From: Scheffersomyces stipitis CBS 6054
Lineage: Eukaryota > Ascomycota > Pichiomycetes > Serinales > Debaryomycetaceae
Assembly: GCF_000209165.1 (NCBI RefSeq)
Contig: NC_009042.1
Location: 2,542,001-2,606,000 of the forward strand
Length of the DNA stretch: 64,000 nt
Reading direction: 5' to 3'
A program made the position numbers and the translations under genes. The notes under the pieces were generated by a model. The model saw only the letters and a list, made by a program, of their open reading frames with translations, was not told the DNA's origin and did not search any database. Below are positions 44,264 to 58,229 of this stretch, in pieces. Position 1 is the stretch's first letter. Every line of letters begins with the position of its first letter.

Positions 44264-45387
44264 TCTATGCAAATCTGAATCAAGGAAGTTTTAAAAGTGA
44301 CAGTAGTTAAGAAAGCAATATTCAAGCAAACTTAATGTGGTTCAAAGTAGCAGCACTAGGCAAGTGGTAAGATGCAATGAAAGATACAAATGAAAAAGTA
44401 GCAATAGTTGGTAAATTTGAAAGTCAGAGCTGAAATCTAATCGGTGTTGGATCTATATTTATATAAATACTCTCATTCTGATTTAAAACCTACAATTCGC
44501 GGCTGAGTTACTTTTTTTCTGCATGCTTATTTTACGCGTACTCCAGATAAATTTAGTCCTATAAATAGGCACTGCGTAATTGATTGCGATGAGATGCAGT
44601 GAGATGCGAAGAGATGATGTAGACGTCGTGCCAGCAATGGCCAATTTCCAACTTGACTACTTGGCCAAATATTAAGAAACTGTTCGTGTGAGATTTTTGA
44701 AAATCAAAACGAACCTCTATCGTATACCGAAGAGCCACTCTCCAAATGCTAGTATTGCCAGGGATTCTCTTGAGCTGCAAGTGAAACAGTTCAACAAGCT
44801 ATTAAAAGAACATTCTATAAAAAGATCAAAAGTGATCTGATGCTCATGCCACACGTCGTCATATAACTATTTGGATCGCTAGTATGACCAGGACATTCGA
44901 TATGCCATCATTTTTCACCTTTACCCGAGTCCAAAATGCCATGCACGCAGCACTGCCTTTTTTCAGAACCCATAGTGAATTTTTACTACGGTGACACACT
45001 AAGCCAAGTGTGTCTACTGAGCCCCTACTTCATCATGTAACCAATTACCTCTCTGTTAACGTCCTCATCGTGCCTTGCATACGGCAGCTACATCCAGTAT
45101 GGTCTACAGTTGCCAATTGCTATTTGGTCGGCATTTCGTTACACTTCATGGCTGGGCAAGCCTACCGAGGATAGCCTCAATGAAAAGTGGTTGCCATTCT
45201 TACGAGAACTGACTACTTGCAAGTAATTTACCTGGATCAATACAGAAGACTGGTTGATAATGTGTATACCTTTAGAACTGACAGAATTTTTTTACGAGAT
45301 GGCATATTACAATTAAAGACTAACCTAATTGCTACTTAATAAATACCTCCCGTGATCTATATTGAACAATGGGTTTATTATGAATTT
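44264..45387. other. Intergenic region before the LINE array
   Basis: 1.1 kb. The left end is the promoter of the membrane-protein gene (TATA-rich block 44454-44469). The remainder has no open frame worth naming and no recognised RNA gene. It is the flank at the 3' side of the retrotransposon array. Confidence 0.55.
44454..44469 (-). promoter_or_regulatory. TATA-rich block
   Basis: TATATTTATATAAATA about 190 bases upstream of the ATG at 44263. It is a plausible TATA element for the small cysteine-rich membrane-protein gene. Confidence 0.4.
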
Positions 45388-45548
45388 TTTCTTCCAACGA
45401 AATGGCATGTACTACGACTAAAGTCAACCCTATCTACTACAGAGCATAATCTTCCTATAATCTCTACCAAAGGGGAGAGGAAATCCTAAGATAAGCCTCC
45501 GGAGGATATTCACGAAATCACGTGATTTCTGTCCCGTGAATTTGTCCC
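45388..45548 (-). mobile_element. 3' fragment of a LINE, family B
   Basis: Read on the minus strand, this piece begins just after a 12-A tract and ends CATGCCATTTCGTTGG followed by a short A-run (AAGAAAAAATTC). It matches the 3' UTR of the full element at 51333-51527: shared blocks include GACTTTAGTCGTA, ACATGCCATTTCGT and AGGATTTCCTC. It does not match the 3' UTR of the adjacent element (45561-45801). It is therefore a severely 5'-truncated third copy of the same family as the right-hand element, lying at the 3' end of the array. Confidence 0.75.
45496..45529. repeat. Palindromes in the LINE 3' fragment
   Basis: CCTCCGGAGG (45496-45505) and the 16-base perfect palindrome GAAATCACGTGATTTC (45514-45529) correspond in position to the hairpin of the full family-B element at 51448-51468, so a stem-loop near the 3' end is kept although the bases differ. 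Confidence 0.5.
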
Positions 45549-45801
45549 TTTTTTTTTTTTGAATACACCATATATTAAACCTATGTAAACCATACGAGAA
45601 ATATATAGGGGCCTATTGGGCCTTGAGTGAAATACTTCATAGTGAACAATTGAAGAAAAGAGTATTCAAGGGAGAAAATGCAATTAAGCACGAAAAACTG
45701 ATAATTTTGCAATCAATTTGACAGTGTGAGACTCCTGAACAAAGTCAGTATACTCACTAAAAACCCATATGAAGGAGAAAATTAGAGAATAAAGACATAA
45801 A

Positions 45802-48800
45802 TTAACGAAGCGTACAATTGACGAGTATCCATTCTTCTAGTGCCGGCGTGTCCATCTGCTGGCGCAGAGCCAGAGAGGTACGTCGTCGGAAGCGTAGAGA
45901 AAGAACCCCATCAATATACTCGTTGATCTTGTACGCAGAAGATCGATCAATCAGAGGATTGGCAATCACAAAGGAGAAGGAGCGAAGGGGAAGCGAGTAA
46001 GAGTTCCAAATATGAAGTGTGACAGGACATTCAAAGATCACATGAACCATGGAATCAGGAACCTGTCCACATAGGAAACAGTTCCCGGGATTAGGTTGAG
46101 AGATAAAATGGGGGTAGTGAAGCCGACCAAGAATGAAGAGATGATAGGGTTGTAAAGCACCAGGGCACCCTTTCTGAAATGAGGCAAGTTTGGACCAAAA
46201 GGTGGACCAGTCTCGGTAAGAGGGGGAACGAAAATTGGAAAGTCGTGATGGCCATGATGGTATAACCGGGGTCTTATCAACTAGTTTCTTGGAAATACTG
46301 TGGAATGAAGTGGCTGGGTCAAGAGGACGTGATTTGGGGCCCTTCTCCCACATGAAGGAGATAGTGTCCTGAGACCGGCGAGGAAGATAAAGCTGAGAAA
46401 GTTCAGCAGGAGAAATATAAATGGCCAGGTGGTAACTCGAGAAATGAACGGTAGAGAAGAGACGGAACCACGCCTGCAACCAAGACCGTGCTGGAGCTGG
46501 AAGACGGCGAAGAGTGTCCCGATAAAGATCGACCACAAGGTTTTCCATACCGTAGATAAAATTGTACCAGGGATAATGGAAGTGACGAAGGGGTCTGCCG
46601 GGAGAAGGAGTACAGTAAAGATCAATCGTACCTCTGAGGGTGCGGTCAAGCGTTTTTTGTAATGCGATCTTAATGGCATTGAACTCAAAATTGTCACTAG
46701 TGTGGAGAAGTTTAAAAATTTGTTCCGCCCGTTTTCCTTCAAGTTGATTATGAATGTTAATCATTCCGAATCCACCCAGGGAGAGGGGTTTGCAAAGAAT
46801 CGAGGGTGGTAAATTGAATCGAAATTTGTTACAGATGGTATCTTCAAGCGAGGAAATAAGTTGATAAGGAAGTGGAGAGTGAATGTCCTTGAAATAGAGG
46901 GTGGAGAAGATAAAGCTGCCATAGAGTTGAACAGCCTGGGCAATAGGAATGTCATCGACTGGAGTGGAGCGAATTTTGGCTTGTAAGAATCCGATATGTT
47001 TGCCCCATGGGGAGGATAAGCTGTTGTCGTAGTCTGATAGGGCAAAAGGAATTCCTAGATATTTAAACTTATCAGGATCAAAAGGTTGTACCGGATAAGG
47101 AAGATGTCTTAAATAGTCAGGAGGAGATTGATTGGTGAGAGAGTAGACAATGGTTTTATTGGGATTTACCCGTAGGGAGGAGGCACGTTCAAATTCTCCT
47201 AAAAGCATGAGAAGTGAAAATTGGTCGAAGAAGGTATGAGTGTAGATAATCACATCATCCGCATATGCTGCGTATGTGAAATGACGTTCCGCACAAAGGT
47301 TGTGATCAAGAATAAAGTGAGTTAATGAAAAATGTACTCGAACTAGAAAAGTTTCAAGAACAAGGTTGAAAAGAAATGGGGAAACAGGGTTGCCTTGTCG
47401 GGTTCCCATGGTTAAAGGGAACGACCGACTTTTGAAGCCGTTGATAAAGAGCTGACCGTATTGTTGGGTGGTAACGGCCATAAGAAATTTTATGATGCGA
47501 GGCCCAAAATTGGCCTGTTTAAGGGTTTTGAGAATAAAGGGATGGTGAATACTATCGAAAGCCTTGTGAAAATCGATCGAAACCAAAGAGGTATATTCGT
47601 CATAAGAACGGGTGTCATTGTGTTTCCGGATATGATCAGTAATGGCACGGAGATTGAATATGTTTTCATTAATATCGCGAGTTGGAATAAATCCAGCTTG
47701 ATCGCGTCCAATCAAGGTGTCAGAGACCTTATTGAGGCAACGATTAATATGAAGGGAAAGAAGACGCAATCCTGTTGATATTAAGGAAATTGGTCTTTTA
47801 TTTTCGATAGCGTCAGACCGTTTCTTTTTATGAAGAAGAATGATGTTAACGTATTTCATGGAGTTTGGTAATTTTCCGCCTGACATGAGGTGGTTACCGA
47901 CTTCGGTTAGAGGTTTGCCAACTATTGGCCAAAGATCTCGAAGTACCTGGAAGTTAATGCCATCGTCTCCTGGTGCTGATTTGAAATTAACCAGTTTGAG
48001 GGTAGATTCAAGTTGTTTGACATCAAAAGGAGTTTCAAGGTCATTCTTTTGGGTTGTGGTGAGCCGAAAGGGAAGATCAAGAAGGAAGAAATCTTGTTCG
48101 GATAGATCAATATTTTTAGGAGGTCGGTTGAGTTTAGCGAAGAAATTGTATGCCAAATTTAGGATAGTGGGAGTGGTGGTGGCGGTCTCACGTTGTGCAT
48201 TGGTAAGACATGTGATTATAGAGTCGGTGACCGGCTTCATGAATCGTTTTGATGGATCTGGTTTAGGTTTTGCGGATCGGGGAAAAGCATGTACAAGATA
48301 TCGATGAAGGATATGAACCCTTTCATCAATTTCTTTTAATAACATGTCCCATTCAATGGAAGGGTTACATAATGGAAGATGACGTATCAGTAAGATAGAC
48401 TCAAGTACGAAAGGATCGGAAAGAATGTAAGCAGGAAAATTCTTACGGGATGTTCCGAAAACGATTTGAGGGTGAGTAGAAAGAAGAAGCGTAAGACTGA
48501 CTGAATCATGAGTTGAGTTGTTGATGATGGTTTGGATGTCACATGATAAAAGATTTGGTAGTAAGTGTGAGTTAATATGGATGCGATCTAAACGCCTTGG
48601 GGATAGTCCATTCCTGACATTATTTGTGAAACGTATTTCATTTGGATGTAAATGTCTGAAGCAATCAAGTAAGCTGAAAACACTAGAGAATTCAGTGAAC
48701 GCAACACGAATTTGTACCTCTCTAAGCCAGGATGAGTGGGGTTTGAAAGCGTCCAAATCAGGGTTAAGAACATGGTTGAAATCTCCCCCGACAAGGAGCT

Positions 48801-49290
48801 GGGTGAAATTATGATGAGAACGTATATAATTCTTGATTTTTGTGATCATTTGGGTTTGAGGGCCAGCTTGGCCAGGTTCAAGATACATATTTATAAGTGT
48901 ATAGGGTGAGGAGTGTCCTTCAATCATGAAGTCGACATCACATGTTCTACTATCAGTATCTGAGCCAATGGAAATGGAATTGTTGCTAAGAATAGTAATT
49001 TTCTTGTTGAGAATCGATTTTTGAATAACAATTGCACTTAAGCAGCCGTAGTATGGAATTATCAATTGAAGACCCCTTCCAGAGAGGTGGAAGCGGAAAT
49101 GAGTGAGAGCTTCTTCTGATGCGAGACGTAGTTCTTGAATAAGTAAAATGTCAAGGAATTTAATACGATTGAAAATATGAAAAATACGGTCGCAAGCGTA
49201 TTGAAAATGACCCTTATGTTCAATGTTTTGGGTGCAAATTTTTAAAGTATTTGCACTATGGGCAATTGTTTGATTTTTCTTTTTTGTCAT
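45802..49290 (-). CDS. LINE ORF2: endonuclease-reverse transcriptase (family A)
   Basis: 1162 residues, intact. The N-terminal APE-type endonuclease shows TQNIEHKG, LLIQE (about residue 52), GGDFNHVLNPD (about 170) and RRLDRIHI. Its last motif reads NSTHDSV, where most relatives have SDH. The reverse transcriptase follows, with RPISL, DQAGFIPTR, SIDFHKAFDSI, GTRQGNPVSPFLFNL and the catalytic YADD at residues 676-679. The C-terminus carries a CX2CX8HX4C knuckle (Cys1071, Cys1074, His1083, Cys1088). The enzyme nicks target DNA and copies the element RNA from the nick. The first ATG sits 18 bases after the stop of a 62-codon leader frame and just after an A10 tract. The sequence is distant from the ORF2 at 51528-55079. 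Confidence 0.95.
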   Translation of the reverse strand: MTKKKNQTIAHSANTLKICTQNIEHKGHFQYACDRIFHIFNRIKFLDILLIQELRLASEEALTHFRFHLSGRGLQLIIPYYGCLSAIVIQKSILNKKITILSNNSISIGSDTDSRTCDVDFMIEGHSSPYTLINMYLEPGQAGPQTQMITKIKNYIRSHHNFTQLLVGGDFNHVLNPDLDAFKPHSSWLREVQIRVAFTEFSSVFSLLDCFRHLHPNEIRFTNNVRNGLSPRRLDRIHINSHLLPNLLSCDIQTIINNSTHDSVSLTLLLSTHPQIVFGTSRKNFPAYILSDPFVLESILLIRHLPLCNPSIEWDMLLKEIDERVHILHRYLVHAFPRSAKPKPDPSKRFMKPVTDSIITCLTNAQRETATTTPTILNLAYNFFAKLNRPPKNIDLSEQDFFLLDLPFRLTTTQKNDLETPFDVKQLESTLKLVNFKSAPGDDGINFQVLRDLWPIVGKPLTEVGNHLMSGGKLPNSMKYVNIILLHKKKRSDAIENKRPISLISTGLRLLSLHINRCLNKVSDTLIGRDQAGFIPTRDINENIFNLRAITDHIRKHNDTRSYDEYTSLVSIDFHKAFDSIHHPFILKTLKQANFGPRIIKFLMAVTTQQYGQLFINGFKSRSFPLTMGTRQGNPVSPFLFNLVLETFLVRVHFSLTHFILDHNLCAERHFTYAAYADDVIIYTHTFFDQFSLLMLLGEFERASSLRVNPNKTIVYSLTNQSPPDYLRHLPYPVQPFDPDKFKYLGIPFALSDYDNSLSSPWGKHIGFLQAKIRSTPVDDIPIAQAVQLYGSFIFSTLYFKDIHSPLPYQLISSLEDTICNKFRFNLPPSILCKPLSLGGFGMINIHNQLEGKRAEQIFKLLHTSDNFEFNAIKIALQKTLDRTLRGTIDLYCTPSPGRPLRHFHYPWYNFIYGMENLVVDLYRDTLRRLPAPARSWLQAWFRLFSTVHFSSYHLAIYISPAELSQLYLPRRSQDTISFMWEKGPKSRPLDPATSFHSISKKLVDKTPVIPSWPSRLSNFRSPSYRDWSTFWSKLASFQKGCPGALQPYHLFILGRLHYPHFISQPNPGNCFLCGQVPDSMVHVIFECPVTLHIWNSYSLPLRSFSFVIANPLIDRSSAYKINEYIDGVLSLRFRRRTSLALRQQMDTPALEEWILVNCTLR

Positions 49291-49307
49291 TATATTTTTT
49301 TTTTGAT

Positions 49308-49496
49308 TTATGATTTTTTGAATAAAGGTTTTCTTTGTTTTTTGATTGAATAGTGATTTTCAGATAATAGTAAAGAAGGAATTGAAAATAAATTAGTGAT
49401 AAAAATGAAAATGAAAACTGGAATTGAAGTACACTCTAAGGTGTGTAGGGAGGTTCCAGGTGACCTCCCTATCCGCTGCCAACAATGAATAATCAT
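49308..49496 (-). other. 62-codon frame bridging ORF1 and ORF2 (family A)
   Basis: Its ATG overlaps the ORF1 stop as ATGA (49496-49493), and it ends in TAA 18 bases before the ORF2 ATG. It encodes a hydrophobic middle (FIFIFITNLFSIPSLLL) and a Lys-rich end, with no known domain. It may be only a reinitiation leader. The ORF2 frame is open back to about 49356, one base (-1) out of register, so a slip on the A6 run (about 49330) could join the two. Whether it is translated is unknown. Confidence 0.3.
49447..49470. repeat. Hairpin in the ORF1-ORF2 spacer (family A)
   Basis: AGGGAGGT (49447-49454), an 8-base loop, then ACCTCCCT (49463-49470): an 8-bp perfect GC-rich stem in otherwise AT-rich spacer RNA, 22 bases beyond the ORF1 stop. 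It could assist reinitiation or RNA packaging. Confidence 0.55.
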
Positions 49497-51193
49497 TGTG
49501 GCAGACGGTTTGGCTCATTGTCAGACAATGAGTCAAAAAGGGAGGAGGAAGGAAGCATAGCTTGTGAGTCCACTTCAGTTGAACTCATATAGCTAGTGGA
49601 TTCCCTTCCTGTGTTCGTATGCTTGGAAGCATGTGCATCCTGTGACAAAGAACGAGTTGTAGTAGAGCTAGCTCGCTTTCTAGTGTTAGGAGAAGGCGGA
49701 GGTGGGTCTCGGTTAGGAGATTCATCTCGCTGTCTGGAAATAGAACTCGTTGGGGAAGGAGGTCTGGACAGAGCATGTCGATTGTGTGATTGTTTTCTAG
49801 TGGTCCTGTTGGCTTCTGAAGCAGGGAGAAAACCGTCCTCGTCAACCGTCACTGGATTGGTGTGTTTGAGGATGGATTTCGGCTGCTTTGTAACCGTAAT
49901 GTTACTTGAACGTGAAGGGCCTGAGGAGCCTGGAGTGCCTGAGGTGGAGTTGACAGTGATGGAAGGATTTCTGATGAATTTCTGGGCTTCTTCACGTGTC
50001 ACTTGATAATGAATTGGAGTCGTTGGGACCTTACATCTTGAAGTTGCATGTTGTCTCAGTCCGCAGAGACGGCATTGTTGGGCAACAGTACATTTTCTTC
50101 GGGTATGGTCAAGGGAGTGGCAGTAAGTACAATGAATGCAATCACTTTGAATTTGAAAAGACATATCCTCAAGAACTGGTTTCCTGATAGTGGAAGGAGG
50201 AGCTATCAGTCCTTCAAGTTCAATTAGGTAATGATAAATAACATTACCATATATTTGTGTATTATGACGTTTCACTTGTTTGTTTGTGGGTGCATCTGAG
50301 GCAATGCGTTTTCCAACACCCTTAAGAAAGTAGTCCATATACGAGTTTGCACCTCTACTGTATAGCTTAGGGAGTTTAAAACTGCCTAAGATATATTTTT
50401 TCGAGGTAGGGGGTCTGAAAGTTAGCTTGAAAGGTTGTTTAGTGATGGGATGCTGAAATTCAAGGTCCTCTACGAGGTTGATTAATTCTCGTTTCAATTT
50501 TGTTCCAGCTGATTCATCGAGAGTACACAATGGAATTGGAAAACGGATGAGACCATTGTCAGAAATTTCGAAGGAATAGCAATAACAAAGAAGATCAAGA
50601 TGATGGTCGAGAGTTGCAAGATGGTCCCGATCATCTTTATTGAGTTGGGCGATTTCTTCAGGGGAATTGTCGATCATGTAGTCTTCTTGCGAGACTTGCA
50701 TCTGGGCTTCAAGATCTTCATGTTGGTCAGCAAAGAGGGAGACTTCGTCACACACTTTGCTTTGGATGTTTTCGGCAAAAGCTTCACTGTGTTGAGGAGA
50801 GTAATCAGGAATACGACATGAAATCGTGTCTCCGACGGTTTGTTCCATGCGGAGAGAGTGAAATTGGAGTTTAAGAAATTCGGGAAACTGTTCGAGTCTT
50901 TGGAATTCAAGAGCAAAAGATTTTTTGGAGATGGGTTGCGATGAAGTCCTCTTAGAGAACTGAGCAGCCATTTGGGCATAGGTGGGAGTAGAAGAAGAAT
51001 TTTCTTCATCGGAGAGATTTTGCAGCCATTCTTGCTGCGATGATTCTGCGTTCTGCAGGCCATAAACCTGTTTATCTGCGACAGAGTCAAGGGTGGGGTC
51101 GATGTCGGTGTCGTCGGATTCCGCATCACGCGCGACATTTTCACTCGACGAAAAATTTTCATTGTCAAAAGCTTCAATAAGGGATTTTGTCAT
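49493..51193 (-). CDS. LINE ORF1: RNA-binding zinc-knuckle protein (family A)
   Basis: 566 residues from the Met at 51193. The frame stays open to an ATG at 51343, but that ATG and the following poly-Lys (KKKK) lie in the 3' tail of the neighbouring element, and the next 40 codons look like GC-rich 5' leader. The N-terminal half is acidic and Ser-rich. The centre may hold an RRM-like fold. Two gag-type CX2CX4HX4C knuckles follow, CTYCHSLDHTRRKC from residue 355 and CRLCGLRQHATSRC shortly after. The C-terminus is Ser/Pro/Arg-rich. ORF1 proteins coat LINE RNA and act as chaperones. The stop overlaps a downstream ATG (ATGA). Confidence 0.85.
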   Translation of the reverse strand: MTKSLIEAFDNENFSSSENVARDAESDDTDIDPTLDSVADKQVYGLQNAESSQQEWLQNLSDEENSSSTPTYAQMAAQFSKRTSSQPISKKSFALEFQRLEQFPEFLKLQFHSLRMEQTVGDTISCRIPDYSPQHSEAFAENIQSKVCDEVSLFADQHEDLEAQMQVSQEDYMIDNSPEEIAQLNKDDRDHLATLDHHLDLLCYCYSFEISDNGLIRFPIPLCTLDESAGTKLKRELINLVEDLEFQHPITKQPFKLTFRPPTSKKYILGSFKLPKLYSRGANSYMDYFLKGVGKRIASDAPTNKQVKRHNTQIYGNVIYHYLIELEGLIAPPSTIRKPVLEDMSFQIQSDCIHCTYCHSLDHTRRKCTVAQQCRLCGLRQHATSRCKVPTTPIHYQVTREEAQKFIRNPSITVNSTSGTPGSSGPSRSSNITVTKQPKSILKHTNPVTVDEDGFLPASEANRTTRKQSHNRHALSRPPSPTSSISRQRDESPNRDPPPPSPNTRKRASSTTTRSLSQDAHASKHTNTGRESTSYMSSTEVDSQAMLPSSSLFDSLSDNEPNRLPQ

Positions 51194-51447
51194 AATAGGT
51201 GTGCTTCCTGCGTCGCCAGCAGCGCGATTGGAGAGTTCACGAGTCGACAAACGACTCTGCTCACCTCGCGGATTGCTGGGGGACTTACGGGGACCCAAAC
51301 CAAGCGGTGGATCGGCCTTTTTTTTTTTTTGACGAAATGGCATGTATTACGACTAAAGTCTAACCTATCTACTACAAAGTATATAAATCATCCTCTAATC
51401 CATACCGAATGGTGGAGGAAATCCTAGGATAAAAACCTCCGAGTGAA

Positions 51448-51468
51448 ATCACCTAAAAACTAGGTGAT
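51448..51468. repeat. Hairpin in the 3' UTR of LINE B
   Basis: ATCACCTA, loop AAAAC, TAGGTGAT: an 8-bp perfect stem about 120 bases from the A tail. A palindrome sits at the equivalent place in the 3' fragment at 45514-45529. 3' stem-loops are the part recognised by the reverse transcriptase in several LINEs. Confidence 0.5.
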
Positions 51469-51527
51469 ATCCTTAGAAAACTGTAGAAAACTGGACAACG
51501 GTATATGCTACCGGACTTGTAAAATGT

Positions 51528-54500
51528 TTAAATAAGACGTCTAGACTGCAAAATCGATACCCAAGTAGAAAGTGTTGACAGAGAGAAGGATTCCCTGTCT
51601 TCACTGTTCCGCCGTCGAACTTGAAATAAGTAGACAGTAAGGAAGTATCGATTTAGAGAAAGGAAAGCAGCCACGGGAAGTTCAAACTTACCAATGATGT
51701 TGTTTAAATCTAGGTTCATACCTTCAGGCCCTAACAAATTCCAAAACGTGCGGCTAGCCTCACAGTCTTGGTAGGTATGGTGAAAGTATTTCCGTCTTTC
51801 AATTGAGTTGAGGCACATTACACAATCTTCAAGAGCCTCCGGATTGCCCTGGCGTTCGCGGTGACCAAGGTGGACCCTGTGTAATTCCTCTGTCCCTTTG
51901 GGATGAAGAAGTTGTACTTTATAAAGAGCCTTCCAAAACTTGGGGTAATTGTCCTGTAGCAGGGGAAACTTTTGAAGTAACGTACTGGAGCTACACACCG
52001 GTGCTTGTTGCTCATATTTGGCTGATCTACGAGTAAATGTCATGCGATCAACACGGCTGGTGATGGGTTTATCCCAGTCCAGCTGAAGTGGCGGATTACG
52101 CACCATCTCTTGTTTCTCGTTAAGCGTGAAAGGCTTTTTAAAATATGAATTAATCCAAAACCTCCTACCCCTTTCATCCGGGATATGGTAGCGGTTTTTC
52201 GGCTTAATGATGGTAAACCATGCTTCGAGCCATGCTATTTCGGCTCTGGTGAATTGAGTGTAGGTCTTGTACGCTGACATTGCATGATCTTTGTTTTGGA
52301 CCGCGTAGTTCACAAGGAAAAGGTACCACGGTACGATGTCCCATTTCAGGGGATCAAGTTGATTGCGTGTCGGAGGGTAAATTGTATCAATGAAGGATTG
52401 AAGTTTGTCACGGAGAACTATGAGATTCCAATCCACCAGATTCGTCAACGTTTCGTAGATAACTTTTGCCCGTCTTCCTAAGAGCTGTTGCTTGACATTG
52501 AGTAGTCCGAAGCCCCCTTTCTTTTTCAAGCTACTAAGGTTTCTGTCGCTAATGCGAGGGAGATGTCCCTTTACCATCTTTTTGATGTGCTTGATATTGT
52601 CATTTGCCATGGGATCATGTAGGTCTCGGAAGTAAATTTTCGAGAAGATGTAAGTATTGAACCCCGTGCATCTGAGATGAATTGGCAATTCTTGTATGGT
52701 GTGGAAATGTAGCTGTGTGGAAAGAGAGGAGATATACGAATCCCATCGGAAGCCGTTAAGCGGAACTCCGAGGTATTTGTAGTCAGTGGTGCTAATGTCA
52801 AGGACTTCAAAGCCAAGGATCTTGGTAACATCTTCGGGAGGTGACTGGCCCCAGTGGCAGGTCCGGGACTTGGCGATACTGACCAACGAGTTGGATGCTT
52901 GTTCAAATAGAGTAAGTTCTTCTTTGAGAATTTCATGATCTCTGGTTCCATTCACAAAAACTGTGAGATCATCTGCAAAGGCTGAATATTTCGCTGTTAG
53001 CGGTGGTAGATGGTCGAGTTGAATCGGAATTCCCTCGAGCCGACTCTGTAATCTTTGTAAAAGAGGCTCCAAGCAGAGATTGAAAAGGATAGGCAGCACT
53101 GGGTTGCCTTGTCTCGTTCCCTGTTTGAGTGGAAAGGTCTCTGACTTTGTGTTGTTGGTAAAAATGGCTGCAAATTGTTGTGTCGTTACCAGGAGCAAGA
53201 TCCGCTTGAATCTGGGGCCAAAGCCAAGTTGGTCGAGTACTGCAGACAAATAGTCGTGCGATATCCGATCAAATGCTTTAGTCAAGTCCAAGATAATGAC
53301 ATTTGCACTTTTCAGAGTCTCGGGGTCTTTTGATACTTTGTCGATGAGGGCCCGGAACCTTTGGATTTGAAAGTCCATCTGGCGTTCGGGCATAAAGCCG
53401 CATTGGTCATAGCCGATGAGGTCCTTGGTCACCTTTTGAAGGCGCATATTAAGGACCTGCGAAATCACCCTTAAAGAAGTATTAATAAGGGAGATGGGAC
53501 GGAAATCATCGACCGTGAGGTCCTTACGTTTTCTCTTGGGTATCAAACGGATGAGAACTAGAGCCATTGACTCTGGTAATATTCCCGTTTGCATGATATT
53601 CTCCGCGTCCTTTGTTAATAGTGGGCCTGCCTTGTCCCAGATAGCCTTTAGGAAAAGATAGGTCATCCCATCTTCTCCTGGCGTGGAACTGTTGGCAGTC
53701 CGCTGTAATCCGGACGTAAGTTCTTCATATGTGATTGGCTTTTCAAGCTCCACACTGTCGCTGGCTGATACTTTGCGACGGAACATCTGTACATACCTCC
53801 TAATGGAGAGTTTGGCTTCTTGGGCCTGGGAATCCAGGTAAAGCGCTGCTAGGTGTTCTCGTTGTATCTCTAGTATATCTTTGGTTGTGATGGCGGTGCG
53901 AGCCCGATCTGCGGTTGTGAGAGTACTCACAATTGTTGCTGCATGGGTTGCCCCTTTGAACCGGTCGTTGAGATCCTTGAAGATCTTTGGTGGTTGCCTC
54001 TCTTCTATTTGGGAAGTGACCGACTGTTGATTTCTAAGATAGCCTATTATTCTAGGCAATCGTTTTATGAATGCAGTGTAGTCGGAGAATCTTGTTTGTT
54101 GTAAGATACTGAAGAGATGTGTGTTGTCTAGCCAGTGGTCCTTTACGATAAAGCGGGGTTTTCTGATTTTTAGGGTTGCTTTTGGAAGGATAATAAGGTC
54201 TATTTCAACTGTTATATGAGTTGATGAGATTATGCCTTCTTTGTGTTGATGGTATCGCCAAACCCTGTCTTTAAGAGACGTGGGGAGATAGATACGATCG
54301 AGGCGGCGACAATTTCGGAAATTGTCATTCGTGAATAATTTGATTTGAGGATCGAGCCCTCTGAGAGTGTCGTGGAGTTGTAAGCCATGGAAGATAGCAT
54401 TGAATGCATCGCGTGATGCGACTTCCGTGGTTTGTCCGACGTGAAAGGAGTCAATTTCAGGGTCAAGGACCATGTTGAAATCGCCCCCTAGGCAGACGTG

Positions 54501-55079
54501 GAATGTAGCTCCTGCGTTGTTTAGTTTGAAGCTTTGGGTGATGATGTCAATTTGGGAGTGTAATGAGGTAAACAACTTGGCCTGAGCCGGATAGTTCCCG
54601 CTTGGGCCGTACACGGATATTATGAGGATGTATTCCTCTTTCTCCGTTAGTTTGATGATGGCGTCAGTTGCATAGGGCGCAAGTTCGGCGTCTAGATCAA
54701 GGTTGTTACTTGATATTTGGTGGAAGTGGGAGTACTGGAGATTTAAGATTATCCCAGTGCGTGATGAAGTGTTGGTGTAGATTAACTCCTTTTGGGAGTC
54801 TTTCAATGTATTCAGGAGTCCATGAATCCATTCCGGTGTCAAATGTGGCAGCGAAGTAGAAGAGGTTTCCTGAAACAGGTTGTGGGTTAGGTATTGAGAG
54901 TGGAAAACAGTTTCCTGGATGAGGAGAATGTCGCATTTATGTGCTAGTTCTCGAATTTTCGCAGGATCCTGGTTTCGTTGAATGTTCTTGGATCTACTCG
55001 TTAGTAAGTTGTTGCGATGATTCACTTCCGATGCCTTTAAGGTCGGATTGGTTATCGCCGTATCTAGTAGATTACTCAT
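51528..55079 (-). CDS. LINE ORF2: endonuclease-reverse transcriptase (family B)
   Basis: 1183 residues, intact. The APE endonuclease has ILLIQET (about residue 52), LGGDFNMVLDPEID, RRLDRIYLP and SSTHITV (again STH rather than SDH). The reverse transcriptase has FRPISLINTSLR, DQCGFMPERQ, ILDLTKAFDRI, GTRQGNPV and FADD at 701-704. In the GNPVxP motif residue 662 is encoded CTG where the other element has TCC (Ser) and LINEs generally have Ser, so it is probably read as Ser. The C-terminal knuckle begins CVMC at Cys1086. The ATG follows the ORF1 stop by one base, and a small TTGGCT/AGCCAA hairpin lies about 22-40 bases upstream of the junction, a layout suiting termination-reinitiation. Confidence 0.95.
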   Translation of the reverse strand: MSNLLDTAITNPTLKASEVNHRNNLLTSRSKNIQRNQDPAKIRELAHKCDILLIQETVFHSQYLTHNLFQETSSTSLPHLTPEWIHGLLNTLKDSQKELIYTNTSSRTGIILNLQYSHFHQISSNNLDLDAELAPYATDAIIKLTEKEEYILIISVYGPSGNYPAQAKLFTSLHSQIDIITQSFKLNNAGATFHVCLGGDFNMVLDPEIDSFHVGQTTEVASRDAFNAIFHGLQLHDTLRGLDPQIKLFTNDNFRNCRRLDRIYLPTSLKDRVWRYHQHKEGIISSTHITVEIDLIILPKATLKIRKPRFIVKDHWLDNTHLFSILQQTRFSDYTAFIKRLPRIIGYLRNQQSVTSQIEERQPPKIFKDLNDRFKGATHAATIVSTLTTADRARTAITTKDILEIQREHLAALYLDSQAQEAKLSIRRYVQMFRRKVSASDSVELEKPITYEELTSGLQRTANSSTPGEDGMTYLFLKAIWDKAGPLLTKDAENIMQTGILPESMALVLIRLIPKRKRKDLTVDDFRPISLINTSLRVISQVLNMRLQKVTKDLIGYDQCGFMPERQMDFQIQRFRALIDKVSKDPETLKSANVIILDLTKAFDRISHDYLSAVLDQLGFGPRFKRILLLVTTQQFAAIFTNNTKSETFPLKQGTRQGNPVLPILFNLCLEPLLQRLQSRLEGIPIQLDHLPPLTAKYSAFADDLTVFVNGTRDHEILKEELTLFEQASNSLVSIAKSRTCHWGQSPPEDVTKILGFEVLDISTTDYKYLGVPLNGFRWDSYISSLSTQLHFHTIQELPIHLRCTGFNTYIFSKIYFRDLHDPMANDNIKHIKKMVKGHLPRISDRNLSSLKKKGGFGLLNVKQQLLGRRAKVIYETLTNLVDWNLIVLRDKLQSFIDTIYPPTRNQLDPLKWDIVPWYLFLVNYAVQNKDHAMSAYKTYTQFTRAEIAWLEAWFTIIKPKNRYHIPDERGRRFWINSYFKKPFTLNEKQEMVRNPPLQLDWDKPITSRVDRMTFTRRSAKYEQQAPVCSSSTLLQKFPLLQDNYPKFWKALYKVQLLHPKGTEELHRVHLGHRERQGNPEALEDCVMCLNSIERRKYFHHTYQDCEASRTFWNLLGPEGMNLDLNNIIGKFELPVAAFLSLNRYFLTVYLFQVRRRNSEDRESFSLSTLSTWVSILQSRRLI

Positions 55080-55124
55080 ATTAATAGTCTATCGTGCTGG
55101 AGGGGTTGGCTTCGTGTGAGCCAA
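55077..55124 (-). promoter_or_regulatory. Translational coupling junction of LINE B
   Basis: On the minus strand the hairpin TTGGCT-loop-AGCCAA (55124-55106) is followed by the ORF1 stop TAA (55083-55081), a single T, and the ORF2 ATG (55079-55077). In the silkworm LINE SART1 an overlapping stop/start of similar type is used to restart translation for ORF2. Confidence 0.45.
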
Positions 55125-58092
55125 TCGTGTCAGTTACCGGTTGATGAGCCATATTAGTATGGTCACCAATTTCCTGGTGTATACTTGGAGAGTCGACTTG
55201 TGTTGGGTCGACGTTTTGACTTTGAAATCTTAGTGAAGAGTCAGATATTTCCCTGCTGTCCAAAATTGTGGATTCGGGCTCCCCTAGGGTGGATCCTAGG
55301 GGGGAATCCGTGATATCCATGACTCTGGCAGGAGGATCTGTTATCGGCGGGGGATCTCGTAGTGTTGAGAAGCGGCTGGCTGAGGTGTTTGGTGCCTGCA
55401 GCTCGTCGCGGCTTAAACTAAGAGTCTTATTAAGTGCTTCATGCACCTTTTGGGACTGTCTTAGAGTCTGACTTTTGTTGGAGTGGGAGAGTCCTATAAT
55501 AGGAGAGTAAGGGGTCGTTTGCTTCCTTGTGAGAGGGGCTAGGCGACCCGAGTAGGACGGTGACGAGATTGGGGTTGCTAGTGGTTTGGTTTTTGATGTG
55601 ACAAGGGATTTACCTTGCTTTCTTGGGCGAGGCGTGATTGGTTGAAGGGTCGGTTGTGTTCTGGTCAGTTTGTTGCCAGTGGCATTGATTGTAGTTTCTG
55701 GGAGGAGCTCCATTTCTTGGTCCTGTGCCTGTTGGCTAAGTATGACGGATGCTTCATCGTCATGGATATCTTCATCTTCGTCTGAATCGGTGTATCTTAT
55801 TGTTTCGTCATCATCATCTTGGATGTATTCCCTTTGGATTTGAACTTGTGGTCGTTCGTTGTTTGAGGTATTGCGAAGTATCCCTGTTGGTTTAGGGTGC
55901 ATGATAGATCTCATGGTTTGGTTCGAGTCAGGTTGGACTGGCTGGTTGTGAATCACGTTTTCCATCTCTCCTGATTCAGGGAGGTCTGCGAGTGGCGCGA
56001 AACGATTACCTCCTTGACTATGTTGCGAGATTAAGGGTTGCGATTCTTTTCTGCGTGTGGTACCTTTCGTCACAGGGTGGAATCCGTCTTTAGCTGTTTG
56101 TGGTTGGGACGGACGCTTGTTGGGGTGTTGGTTAGGTGTTACGTACTGTGAAAGTTCATTCTGGTAAAAATAGTGAACTGGCGCATGTGGGGCCTTGAAT
56201 ACCGGGCATCTCTTGGTGGAGTGCTGGTTAGTATGGCATTTGAAACAGAATTGGTAGGAGGTGATTATGTCGAGTTGGACGCCATTGAGACGGCCGTTCT
56301 TTCGGTTTGGAATCCTATCTGATTCAGTCGCAATTAAGTAGAAAGCGGTCGTAATATGATTACTGAGTTGTTTGCCTTCGTAGTATCTTGCTTCTCTTAT
56401 GTGTTTGGCCAAGACTTTGTAGTCAATAATTTCTCTGTCTTGACGCAGCGAGGGCCCGTATTGCGGAGTTTGTGGGATGTGAAGATCGTTTGGGTTGAAC
56501 ATTCCTTGAACTAGAACGTCTATATTGGAGTACTGAGTTGGAGTTTTTACACCCACAAGAAATACGTTAGAGGCCCTTGGAATTGGGATAAGTTTGAGTT
56601 TAAATCTGTAGTTGCCTTCTACTCCAGTGTAGTAGGGGTCGAATATTTCTTCCAACTTGCTGACCAGGGATTTGGGGGGAGAGGTTGGTTTGTCGGGCCT
56701 TAATTCGGCCGGGGTGAAAACAAAATCTAAATGCAGATTGTCTCTGCTGTGTATGTTGAAATACGTCTTTATGTCATAAATGTTCTGAGTGAATTGGAGT
56801 TTGTTTTCCAATTCTTTAATTTTGAGGTTATTGTCTTCAATACCCCGATTCCATTCACTCTCCAGTGGCTCCCCGGGTGATATGTTGTCTTTGTAGAGTT
56901 GGATGGTGTTTCTGAGGCTGGCAATTCTGTGCTCGGTACTCCTTTTTACCTCGTCTAGAGTCGCTGGAATTGTTTCAGAAAAATGTTTAACGAGGATCTT
57001 CCCTTTTTCACTTATACTCAATTGAGTATTTAAATGGTGCGTTCTCGTTTCAAAGGACTCAATGTGGACTCTTACAGTCTGCTTTTCAGCCACATTTCTG
57101 CCGATAGTACTGAGGGTTGACACGCGAACTTCCTCAGGTGTATTCCAGTCGTCAAATCTTTTCTGTTGTCCCTTGTAATTTGCCTCAGATAGATTATAAA
57201 GATGATTGTGGAGTGTTACACAATCATCAAGCCTGTTGTATTCTTCATCGCTTAGGTGGCCGTCCGATTTCAATTTTGCTTGGAGGGCCCTTGCTTTTTG
57301 ACTATAGGTCTTAAGTAAGTTGTCGGAATCTTTACCGGGAACATCTTGAAGAATATCTGACCATTTCGCCTTATTAGGGTTTGGAAGAGGAGTAGATCTA
57401 ATTGCCTTGGGGTTGGAGGGATGAATCCTTTTCTTAGAAGAACTCTTTGAGGTTCCTAAGAGTGGGTATTCCTCTGCTTCAAGGTCTTGAGTATTTTTTT
57501 CAGGGTTTTTTGTATTTTCTGAGTTTTTTTGGTTTTTATTTAAGTATTGTAAAGATTCAGAATTTTTTTGGGTTTTTGTAATTTCTTTAAGTTGGTGTAC
57601 AAGGAGAGAATCTTCTTGTTCGGGCAAGTTCGAGAGGCTGGTTGTAGAATCTAAAGAAATGTGATCCATTTCATTATCATCATTTGCAGCCATTTCCTGG
57701 TCGTGTACCTCCTCAGGCACGTGACTTTGAAAAATTTCCGAAACTGAGGTTTCAAAACTTTCCATAGTAGGACTTAATGGGGTCTGGTTCTGAATAACCA
57801 GCTGGTCCGTGGGATTATCCCGTAGTTGGGCCGGTTCCTCAGAGGTAGATGACACTGCAGTCACGAAGGATGGCTCTAAATTGCCGTTTTCATCGGCATC
57901 TGTGGACTCGCCATCGAGGTCCATCAGATCATGGGGTGCGACATGGTCGTGTGGATTTCGGTCAATATCCGGTGGTTTTGGCTCGTTTAAGGCTTGATTT
58001 GAAGAGCTTTCACCAGAGAAACCCCCTAGAGGTCCCTCTGGCTGATTGATTGGTCGTAGTTCTGACATTCCCACAATTTTTTTTTCGGCCAT
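55081..58092 (-). CDS. LINE ORF1: RNA-binding zinc-knuckle protein (family B)
   Basis: 1003 residues, much longer than the family A ORF1. The N-terminal 250 residues are acidic, Ser/Asn-rich and disordered. The centre (about 260-460) is highly charged and probably coiled (IKELENKLQFTQ). A globular part (about 460-610) follows, then one gag knuckle CFKCHTNQHSTKRC (Cys616, Cys619, His624, Cys629). The last 370 residues are disordered, with an acidic patch (DDDDETIRYTDSDEDED) and Ser/Pro/Arg stretches. It is taken as the RNA-binding ORF1 protein of the element. The first ATG (58092) lies in an A-rich context with a second Met at residue 9; which one is used is unclear. Confidence 0.82.
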   Translation of the reverse strand: MAEKKIVGMSELRPINQPEGPLGGFSGESSSNQALNEPKPPDIDRNPHDHVAPHDLMDLDGESTDADENGNLEPSFVTAVSSTSEEPAQLRDNPTDQLVIQNQTPLSPTMESFETSVSEIFQSHVPEEVHDQEMAANDDNEMDHISLDSTTSLSNLPEQEDSLLVHQLKEITKTQKNSESLQYLNKNQKNSENTKNPEKNTQDLEAEEYPLLGTSKSSSKKRIHPSNPKAIRSTPLPNPNKAKWSDILQDVPGKDSDNLLKTYSQKARALQAKLKSDGHLSDEEYNRLDDCVTLHNHLYNLSEANYKGQQKRFDDWNTPEEVRVSTLSTIGRNVAEKQTVRVHIESFETRTHHLNTQLSISEKGKILVKHFSETIPATLDEVKRSTEHRIASLRNTIQLYKDNISPGEPLESEWNRGIEDNNLKIKELENKLQFTQNIYDIKTYFNIHSRDNLHLDFVFTPAELRPDKPTSPPKSLVSKLEEIFDPYYTGVEGNYRFKLKLIPIPRASNVFLVGVKTPTQYSNIDVLVQGMFNPNDLHIPQTPQYGPSLRQDREIIDYKVLAKHIREARYYEGKQLSNHITTAFYLIATESDRIPNRKNGRLNGVQLDIITSYQFCFKCHTNQHSTKRCPVFKAPHAPVHYFYQNELSQYVTPNQHPNKRPSQPQTAKDGFHPVTKGTTRRKESQPLISQHSQGGNRFAPLADLPESGEMENVIHNQPVQPDSNQTMRSIMHPKPTGILRNTSNNERPQVQIQREYIQDDDDETIRYTDSDEDEDIHDDEASVILSQQAQDQEMELLPETTINATGNKLTRTQPTLQPITPRPRKQGKSLVTSKTKPLATPISSPSYSGRLAPLTRKQTTPYSPIIGLSHSNKSQTLRQSQKVHEALNKTLSLSRDELQAPNTSASRFSTLRDPPPITDPPARVMDITDSPLGSTLGEPESTILDSREISDSSLRFQSQNVDPTQVDSPSIHQEIGDHTNMAHQPVTDTIGSHEANPSSTIDY

Positions 58093-58157
58093 TTCAAAAA
58101 GAACGTTGTGATTTTTAATGCTCTCATTTGATCAAGAGTGAATAGAGTTTAACAAAT
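58093..58157. other. Gap between the LINE array and tRNA-Gln
   Basis: 65 bases between the LINE B ORF1 start and the tRNA. It holds either the element's 5' UTR or the tRNA 5' flank. I could not find a target-site duplication with the left flank near 45388. Confidence 0.5.
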
Positions 58158-58229
58158 GGTTGTATAGTGTAGTGGTTATCACTTTCGGTTTTGATCCGGA
58201 CAACCCCGGTTCGAATCCGGGTACGACCT
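58158..58229 (+). tRNA. tRNA-Gln (anticodon UUG)
   Basis: 72 bases folding as a full cloverleaf. The acceptor GGTTGTA pairs with TACGACC, the D arm is GTGTAGTGGTTATCAC, the anticodon stem TTCGG/CCGGA encloses the loop TTTTGAT with anticodon TTG, and the T arm is CCCCGGTTCGAATCCGGGG-like. Box A and box B (GGTTCGAATCC) are intact, there is no intron, and a T6 Pol III terminator follows at 58233-58238. It is nearly identical to S. cerevisiae tRNA-Gln(UUG). Confidence 0.97.

Follow-up and report, generated by a model that had tools for sequence, protein, structure and literature searches.

How a head-to-tail array of retrotransposons comes to be assembled is the question raised by a 64-kb stretch of the Scheffersomyces stipitis CBS 6054 genome (contig C2:2542001-2606000, the whole of which we call the window, and whose own positions are used below unless a contig is named). 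On its minus strand, two long interspersed nuclear elements (LINEs) follow one another, joined by A-runs, with a related 3' fragment beyond. The initial annotation had explained this array by serial insertion of LINEs into the A-tails of earlier copies, within an A-rich target. Having searched the assembly (15,441,179 bp, 8 contigs), we replace that explanation with another: the array is very probably a LINE stack laid down serially upstream of a tRNA gene, through targeting of RNA polymerase III (Pol III) genes with a target that is renewed at each insertion. The tail-to-head junctions that the annotation had proposed to look for elsewhere were found at many loci of the genome, and the pattern in the window is therefore not due to chance; its descriptions of two LINE families in tandem on the minus strand, of an A-tract at each junction and of repeated insertion were borne out, the last by stacks across the genome.

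The array is real, with corrected boundaries. It is anchored by a tRNA-Gln(TTG) gene on the plus strand (58158-58229; ARAGORN, with an Rfam RF00005 match at C2:2600158-2600229). From there, reading along the minus strand, come 54 bp, nucleotides (nt) 1-19 of a family 4 (fam4) LINE (58085-58103, a 100% match), 16 nt (58069-58084), a family 1 (fam1) LINE (51331-58068), its A13 tail (51318-51330), the remainder of fam4 from nt 14 onwards (45561-51317), its A12 tail (45549-45560) and two diverged 3' ends; fam1 and fam4 are families B and A of the initial annotation, respectively. The hexamer GGCCGA, nt 14-19 of fam4, is present on both sides of fam1: it closes the detached head (58103-58085), 16 nt ahead of the fam1 ATG, and is repeated directly after the fam1 tail (51312-51317, minus strand). 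Fam1 is therefore nested in the head of fam4, with a 6-bp target duplication, from which it follows that the tRNA-proximal copy is the younger one, and that the A-tract at the junction is fam1's own tail and not its target. Rather than an A-tail, the site that fam1 entered was thus the fam4 head, at GGCCGA.

Each of the two elements has two long open reading frames (ORFs) under genetic codes 12 and 1. In fam1, ORF1 runs to 55081 and ORF2 occupies 51528-55079, followed by the 3' untranslated region (UTR); in fam4, ORF1 as now read spans 49493-51343 and ORF2 45802-49290. We set the start of fam1 at the ATG at 58068, the point from which independent copies agree; the element annotated as complete is indeed whole, only from a later start: the ATG at 58092 originally chosen belongs to the detached head of fam4. 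Likewise, fam4 is nearly complete as described, except that its first 19 nt lie upstream of fam1 and its ORF1 start is lost. The 3' fragment attributed to family B is a related one, but it proved to be an older and diverged fam1/fam2-like 3' end (45397-45509, minus strand), 81% identical to fam2 and 83% to fam1 over a shorter stretch. Beyond it lies a probable, still older fam1-like 3' end (45294-45335, minus strand; 79% over 44 nt, E = 0.002).

The same arrangement recurs throughout the assembly. A Pol III gene was located 53-127 bp (median 92) from the LINE head in 52 of 63 stacks (51 tRNA genes, covering many specificities, and a single 5S gene), and in 52 of these 52 the LINEs lay on the gene's 5' side and in the opposite orientation. 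Allowing for an insert at C1:1660570 yields a 53rd: there, a fam1 copy is split in ORF1 near nt 333-339 by about 6 kb (C1 about 1666970-1673100) whose ends share sequence as long terminal repeats (LTRs) do (some 4 kb of the insert was not read), and the first 339 nt of fam1 lie with their head 79 bp from a tRNA-Thr gene. By chance, about 0.3 of the 63 would be expected, a 75-bp strip at all 857 tRNA candidates, even were every one of them genuine, amounting to 0.4% of the genome. Conversely, among 63 tRNA genes listed regardless of LINEs and scored out of the 857 candidates, 35 had LINE sequence within 400 bp upstream, on the opposite strand in 35 of 35 cases, and none had any downstream; the downstream side was covered by genome-wide matches only and the upstream side also by a local flank search, which somewhat favours this contrast.

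Searches with the two ORF2 proteins recovered 23 copies with a whole, stop-free ORF2, falling by ORF2 identity into four families: fam1 (nine copies), fam2 (four; 63% identical to fam1), fam3 (six; 53%) and fam4 (four). All 23 reside in the 53 Pol III-anchored stacks. Searches with 3' ends returned a further view of the families, with 44 matches for fam1/2, 6 for fam4 and 36 for fam3. LINE pieces, tRNAs and other RNA genes were mapped at the sites by blastn, ARAGORN and Rfam, the site set leaving out a weak ORF2 match at C5:709230. The Pol III gene list used for scoring consisted of a strict list and four additions: two genes from ARAGORN, one of which also appears in an RF00005-based tRNA listing, and one tRNA and one 5S gene from Rfam. 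Permissive ARAGORN settings gave many implausible tRNAs, and the strict list was used instead. A whole ORF2 does not imply a whole element, as shown by a fam4 copy at C1:3082036, whose ORF1 frame is broken by a short tail insertion, a 5'-truncated fam3 copy at C4:276049 and the split fam1 copy at C1:1660570; in six of the full-ORF2 fam1 copies, about 1.1 kb of ORF1 was taken as continuous, the sequence there not having been read. The annotation's suggestion of recent activity is nevertheless in keeping with the 23 uninterrupted ORF2s and with LINE loci that are reported to differ between S. stipitis strains (PMC8546629).

The 5S case, in which fam1 lies 73 bp upstream of the gene, is a single one; no second 5S gene turned up in the assembly, among 47 of 454 candidates scored, and this stack had looked exceptional until the Rfam run. 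Of other Pol III genes, the one for signal recognition particle RNA has a weak LINE relic (75% over 76 nt, E = 1.6e-8) some 140 bp upstream, in the same orientation. At U6, no significant blastn LINE match was obtained in the flank; a stretch about 60-95 bp upstream of the U6 gene, ATGCCTTCGTCGTAAAAAAAA, resembles the fam1 3' end plus tail.

If new copies enter on the gene side, divergence should increase away from the gene, and this is the order that was observed. Of 33 adjacent pairs, 29 had the copy that better matched its family reference on the gene side, and 4 had it on the far side (one-sided sign test, p = 5e-6), the reverse of the order expected from insertion into A-tails; among pairs differing by more than 2.5 points, the gene-nearer copy was the less diverged in 22, versus 1. 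A first identity measure, in which short end overlaps counted as full identity, had given 26 versus 4 with 3 ties and was dropped in favour of BLAST identity. Individual stacks also preserve traces of repeated use of one spot. At a tRNA-Met gene, ATGGCCGA (the head of a fam2 copy) follows or bounds the gene-side flank and each of three fam3 tails, and this recurrence marks three insertions at one position. At a tRNA-Asp gene, TACTGTG(A) recurs at successive junctions, although these letters could also belong to the 5' end of fam3. Finally, the 5-bp duplication (GTGGC) of a fam2 copy at C6:1389467 encloses 30 nt matching a fam3 3' end plus an A-run, an arrangement like that at the fam3-fam2 junction of the tRNA-Met stack. 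This suggests that a stacked fam2 copy was transcribed from within its neighbour, the 5-bp duplication by itself being weak.

Of 35 young top copies, 12 showed target duplications of at least 6 bp, where shuffling gave 1.2 on average and 5 at most; widening the set to all 48 copies with a readable tail again gave 12 (shuffled mean 1.8, maximum 6). The test used leaves out the A-run; a looser version that included it scored 17 of 52 at this length, where shuffling already gave 10.3 on average and up to 16, a difference that is not convincing because shared A's inflate the matches. Target-primed reverse transcription is established for LINEs, and following it we placed the first nick at the edge of the duplication that faces the gene in the orientation used here. 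For fam1 and fam2, this edge lay 67, 67, 67, 67, 65 and 66 bp from six tRNA genes; for fam3, it lay 87, 88, 88, 88 and 90 bp from the gene at five sites. Shuffled pairings produced means of 0.15 (fam1/fam2) and 0.23 (fam3) such sites, with a maximum of 3 each. Some of these positions rest on 5-bp duplications, and one of the fam3 values of 88 could be as low as 80, owing to A's shared with the tail. The heads of five fam4 copies lay 52-57 bp from the gene, with no duplication detected, so that their insertion point is not fixed by one. At a tRNA-Trp gene, a short fam1-like tail sits within a fam4 head, and the duplication GGCCGAT starts at 65 bp. Fam4 copies at two tRNA genes share about 12 nt (AAAATCACAACG) directly upstream of the head as used here (window 58112-58095; C2:2260075-2260095); fam4 may therefore extend further in the 5' direction than assumed here, or some flanking sequence may have been carried along.

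Several observations weigh against this picture. No Pol III gene was detected at the head of 10 of the 63 stacks, and a further site, C6:395744 (a 67% fam4-like match near a 33-nt fam4 3' match at C6:396083), was dropped before the stacks were counted; the 0.8 kb examined there yielded neither a tRNA nor an Rfam match, and counting the site would give 53 of 64. The age clock is rough, consisting of identity to one reference copy per family. Among young top copies, 23 of 35 have no duplication of at least 6 bp, including the four fam4 top copies. The centres of the distance rulers were picked after the data had been seen, and six nicks fall off them: fam1 at 60 (the 5S gene), 90 and 119 bp, and fam3 at 69, 76 and 102 bp.

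These results also bear on other ways in which such arrays could arise. Were the LINEs to target A-tracts and serially enter the A-tails of older copies, A-runs would be expected at every junction, where they are indeed found; Zorro3 of Candida albicans is described as inserting into poly-A (PMC1965478), and 4 of the 12 duplications contain or directly follow an A-run (five A's within two of them, eight A's ahead of the other two). However, the remaining 8 have no run of five A's at either place, fam1 sits inside the head of fam4, the age order is reversed, and distance and orientation to Pol III genes are fixed. We therefore consider A-tails very unlikely as the target, which is better described as a set distance upstream of a Pol III gene; a mild preference of these LINEs for A's may exist alongside. 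A single event per array, with the reverse transcriptase, on reaching the 5' end of its RNA template, jumping to the tail of a second RNA, would equally yield head-to-tail order with A-tracts, and template switching has been reported for Zorro3 in S. cerevisiae (PMC7175516). Such jumping is highly improbable here, given that internal junctions repeat target letters (GGCCGA, ATGGCCGA and TACTGTG(A)) and that neighbouring copies differ in divergence.

Selection could in principle generate the association as well, if insertion were broad and copies were retained only in the flanks of tRNA genes, where they do little harm, and the flanks of Pol III genes are regarded as safe sites (PMC5006619). 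Selection may contribute, but as the sole source of the pattern it seems most improbable, leaving unexplained the base-pair rulers, the uniform orientation, the absence of downstream LINEs at 63 genes and the repeated hits at one position. Lastly, the landmark could be a DNA-bound factor at a CACGTG box rather than the polymerase III complex, the box starting 50-55 nt upstream in 21 of 52 LINE-bearing flanks. It is, however, equally placed (50-54 nt) in 14 of 43 flanks of a second tRNA set, and nicks at 65-67 bp occur both with it (Ala C1:1907810, Glu C6:1389467) and without it (Arg C3:459605, Ile C4:1135329 and Gln in the window); the 5S flank has no box either. We regard this alternative as unlikely. 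The box looks like a host feature of tRNA genes, flanks without it carry other recurring words near the same place, and a literature search for CACGTG upstream of tRNA genes turned up nothing relevant.

Pol III-gene targeting with a renewed target can be cast as a simple course of events, built on the positions, orientation, duplications, age order and recurrence read from the assembled sequence. The LINE machinery would find a polymerase III gene and cut a single strand upstream of it, at a distance typical of each family (fam1 and fam2 about 65-67 bp from tRNA genes, fam3 about 87-90 bp, with fam4 heads at 52-57 bp). The RNA would be reverse-transcribed from its A-tail at the nick, in a target-primed manner, such that the LINE head always points towards the gene. 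Because the target duplication would restore the sequence of the site at an unchanged distance from the gene, one spot could be hit repeatedly; with each new copy coming between the gene and the older copies, age within a stack would increase with distance from the gene. In the window, fam4 would have landed first, 54 bp from tRNA-Gln, and fam1 later at its usual 67 bp, a position that by then fell within the 19 nt at the head of fam4. The constant spacing, the 5S case and the precedent of TRE5, discussed below, lead us to infer the polymerase III complex (transcription factor TFIIIB) as the landmark, which some LINE protein would presumably read. More tentatively, and with rather less than even confidence, we propose that several LINE lineages use the Pol III pre-initiation complex as a ruler, perhaps along one helix face (about 55, 66 and 88 bp, in steps of one and two turns). 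Since the cut site would be rebuilt by every target duplication, each Pol III gene could then serve as a one-way recorder whose latest entry lies closest to it, and displaced copies may still move by means of a transcription start in the 3' end of a neighbour.

As regards coding capacity, RVT_1 was found in ORF2 of both fam1 and fam4. Best solved-structure matches of fam1 ORF2, the only ORF2 used as query, include human LINE-1 ORF2p (E about 1e-44). Fam1 ORF2 matched the APE-type endonuclease family PF03372 at E = 3.6e-4, below the curated cut-off, and fam4 ORF2 gave no PF03372 match at E ≤ 0.01. A Pfam search of the fam1 and fam4 ORF1s likewise returned no match at E ≤ 0.01. The ORF1s contain CCHC knuckles; those of fam1, fam2 and fam3 are mutually related, and that of fam4 aligns with them over about 45-55 residues only, the knuckle included. 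A protein search with both ORF2s (5.8 billion proteins) found few close relatives and no context. Judged by RVT_1, A-runs at the 3' ends, target duplications and the lack of LTRs, the elements are L1-type non-LTR retrotransposons. In the window, the fam4 ORF1 has no start of its own: an ATG at 51343, in the 3' end of fam1, reads in frame through the A-tail into it (51318-51343), and the frame stays open for 616 codons from this new start. The fam1 ORF1 stop and ORF2 start almost touch (TAATATG, 55077-55083), and for this reason coupled translation is suggested.

LINE families of S. stipitis have been described under the names Ace, Bri and Can (PMC8546629); these are probably the elements grouped here by ORF2 identity into the four families fam1-fam4. 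A term search of the main text of that article found no link of LINEs to tRNA genes. In a review that tabulates retrotransposons located next to tRNA genes, the non-LTR entries come from social amoebae only (PMC5911963), and in the open literature, supplements and preprints aside, we found no report of Pol III-targeted LINEs in yeast. With such LINEs met in print, as far as our searches went, for social amoebae only, the yeast case would be new and apparently independent, and would mean that in compact genomes LINEs and LTR elements have both come to use the same safe sites. The yeast is non-pathogenic and growable and its strains can be compared, making the ruler directly testable. By preserving the order of insertion at each gene, the stacks bear on LINE history, as well as on the chromosome rearrangements reported at retrotransposon-rich sites of S. 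stipitis (PMC8546629).

Among known systems, Zorro3 is, like the present elements, an L1-type LINE of a CTG-clade yeast, with two ORFs, a very short 5' UTR and an A-tail; it differs in targeting poly-A tracts, and showed no link to tRNA genes (PMC1965478), whereas position in S. stipitis is set by Pol III genes. Ty1, Ty3, Tca8/beta, Ylt1 and other yeast LTR elements are placed upstream of Pol III genes (PMC5911963), but these use integrase and other distances. The closest likeness in placement is to L1-type LINEs of social amoebae: TRE5 (TRE5-A) of Dictyostelium discoideum occupies the region upstream of tRNA genes, oriented opposite to the gene, and occurs at 5S genes too (PMC5911963), and NLTR-B of Polysphondylium pallidum likewise lies upstream of tRNA genes (PMC5391098). 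The S. stipitis LINEs share with TRE5 the upstream position, the opposite orientation in every scored stack and the presence at a 5S gene. The likeness is one of placement, between elements of a fungus and of amoebae, and the nick distances differ, being about 65-67 or 87-90 bp in S. stipitis, 40-54 bp for TRE5 and 39-64 bp for NLTR-B. Furthermore, fam1 ORF2 has its own ATG just past the ORF1 stop, whereas TRE5-A is said to need a -1 frameshift; its ORF1 protein, according to the same review, binds TFIIIB (PMC5911963), the very complex that may act as the landmark in S. stipitis.

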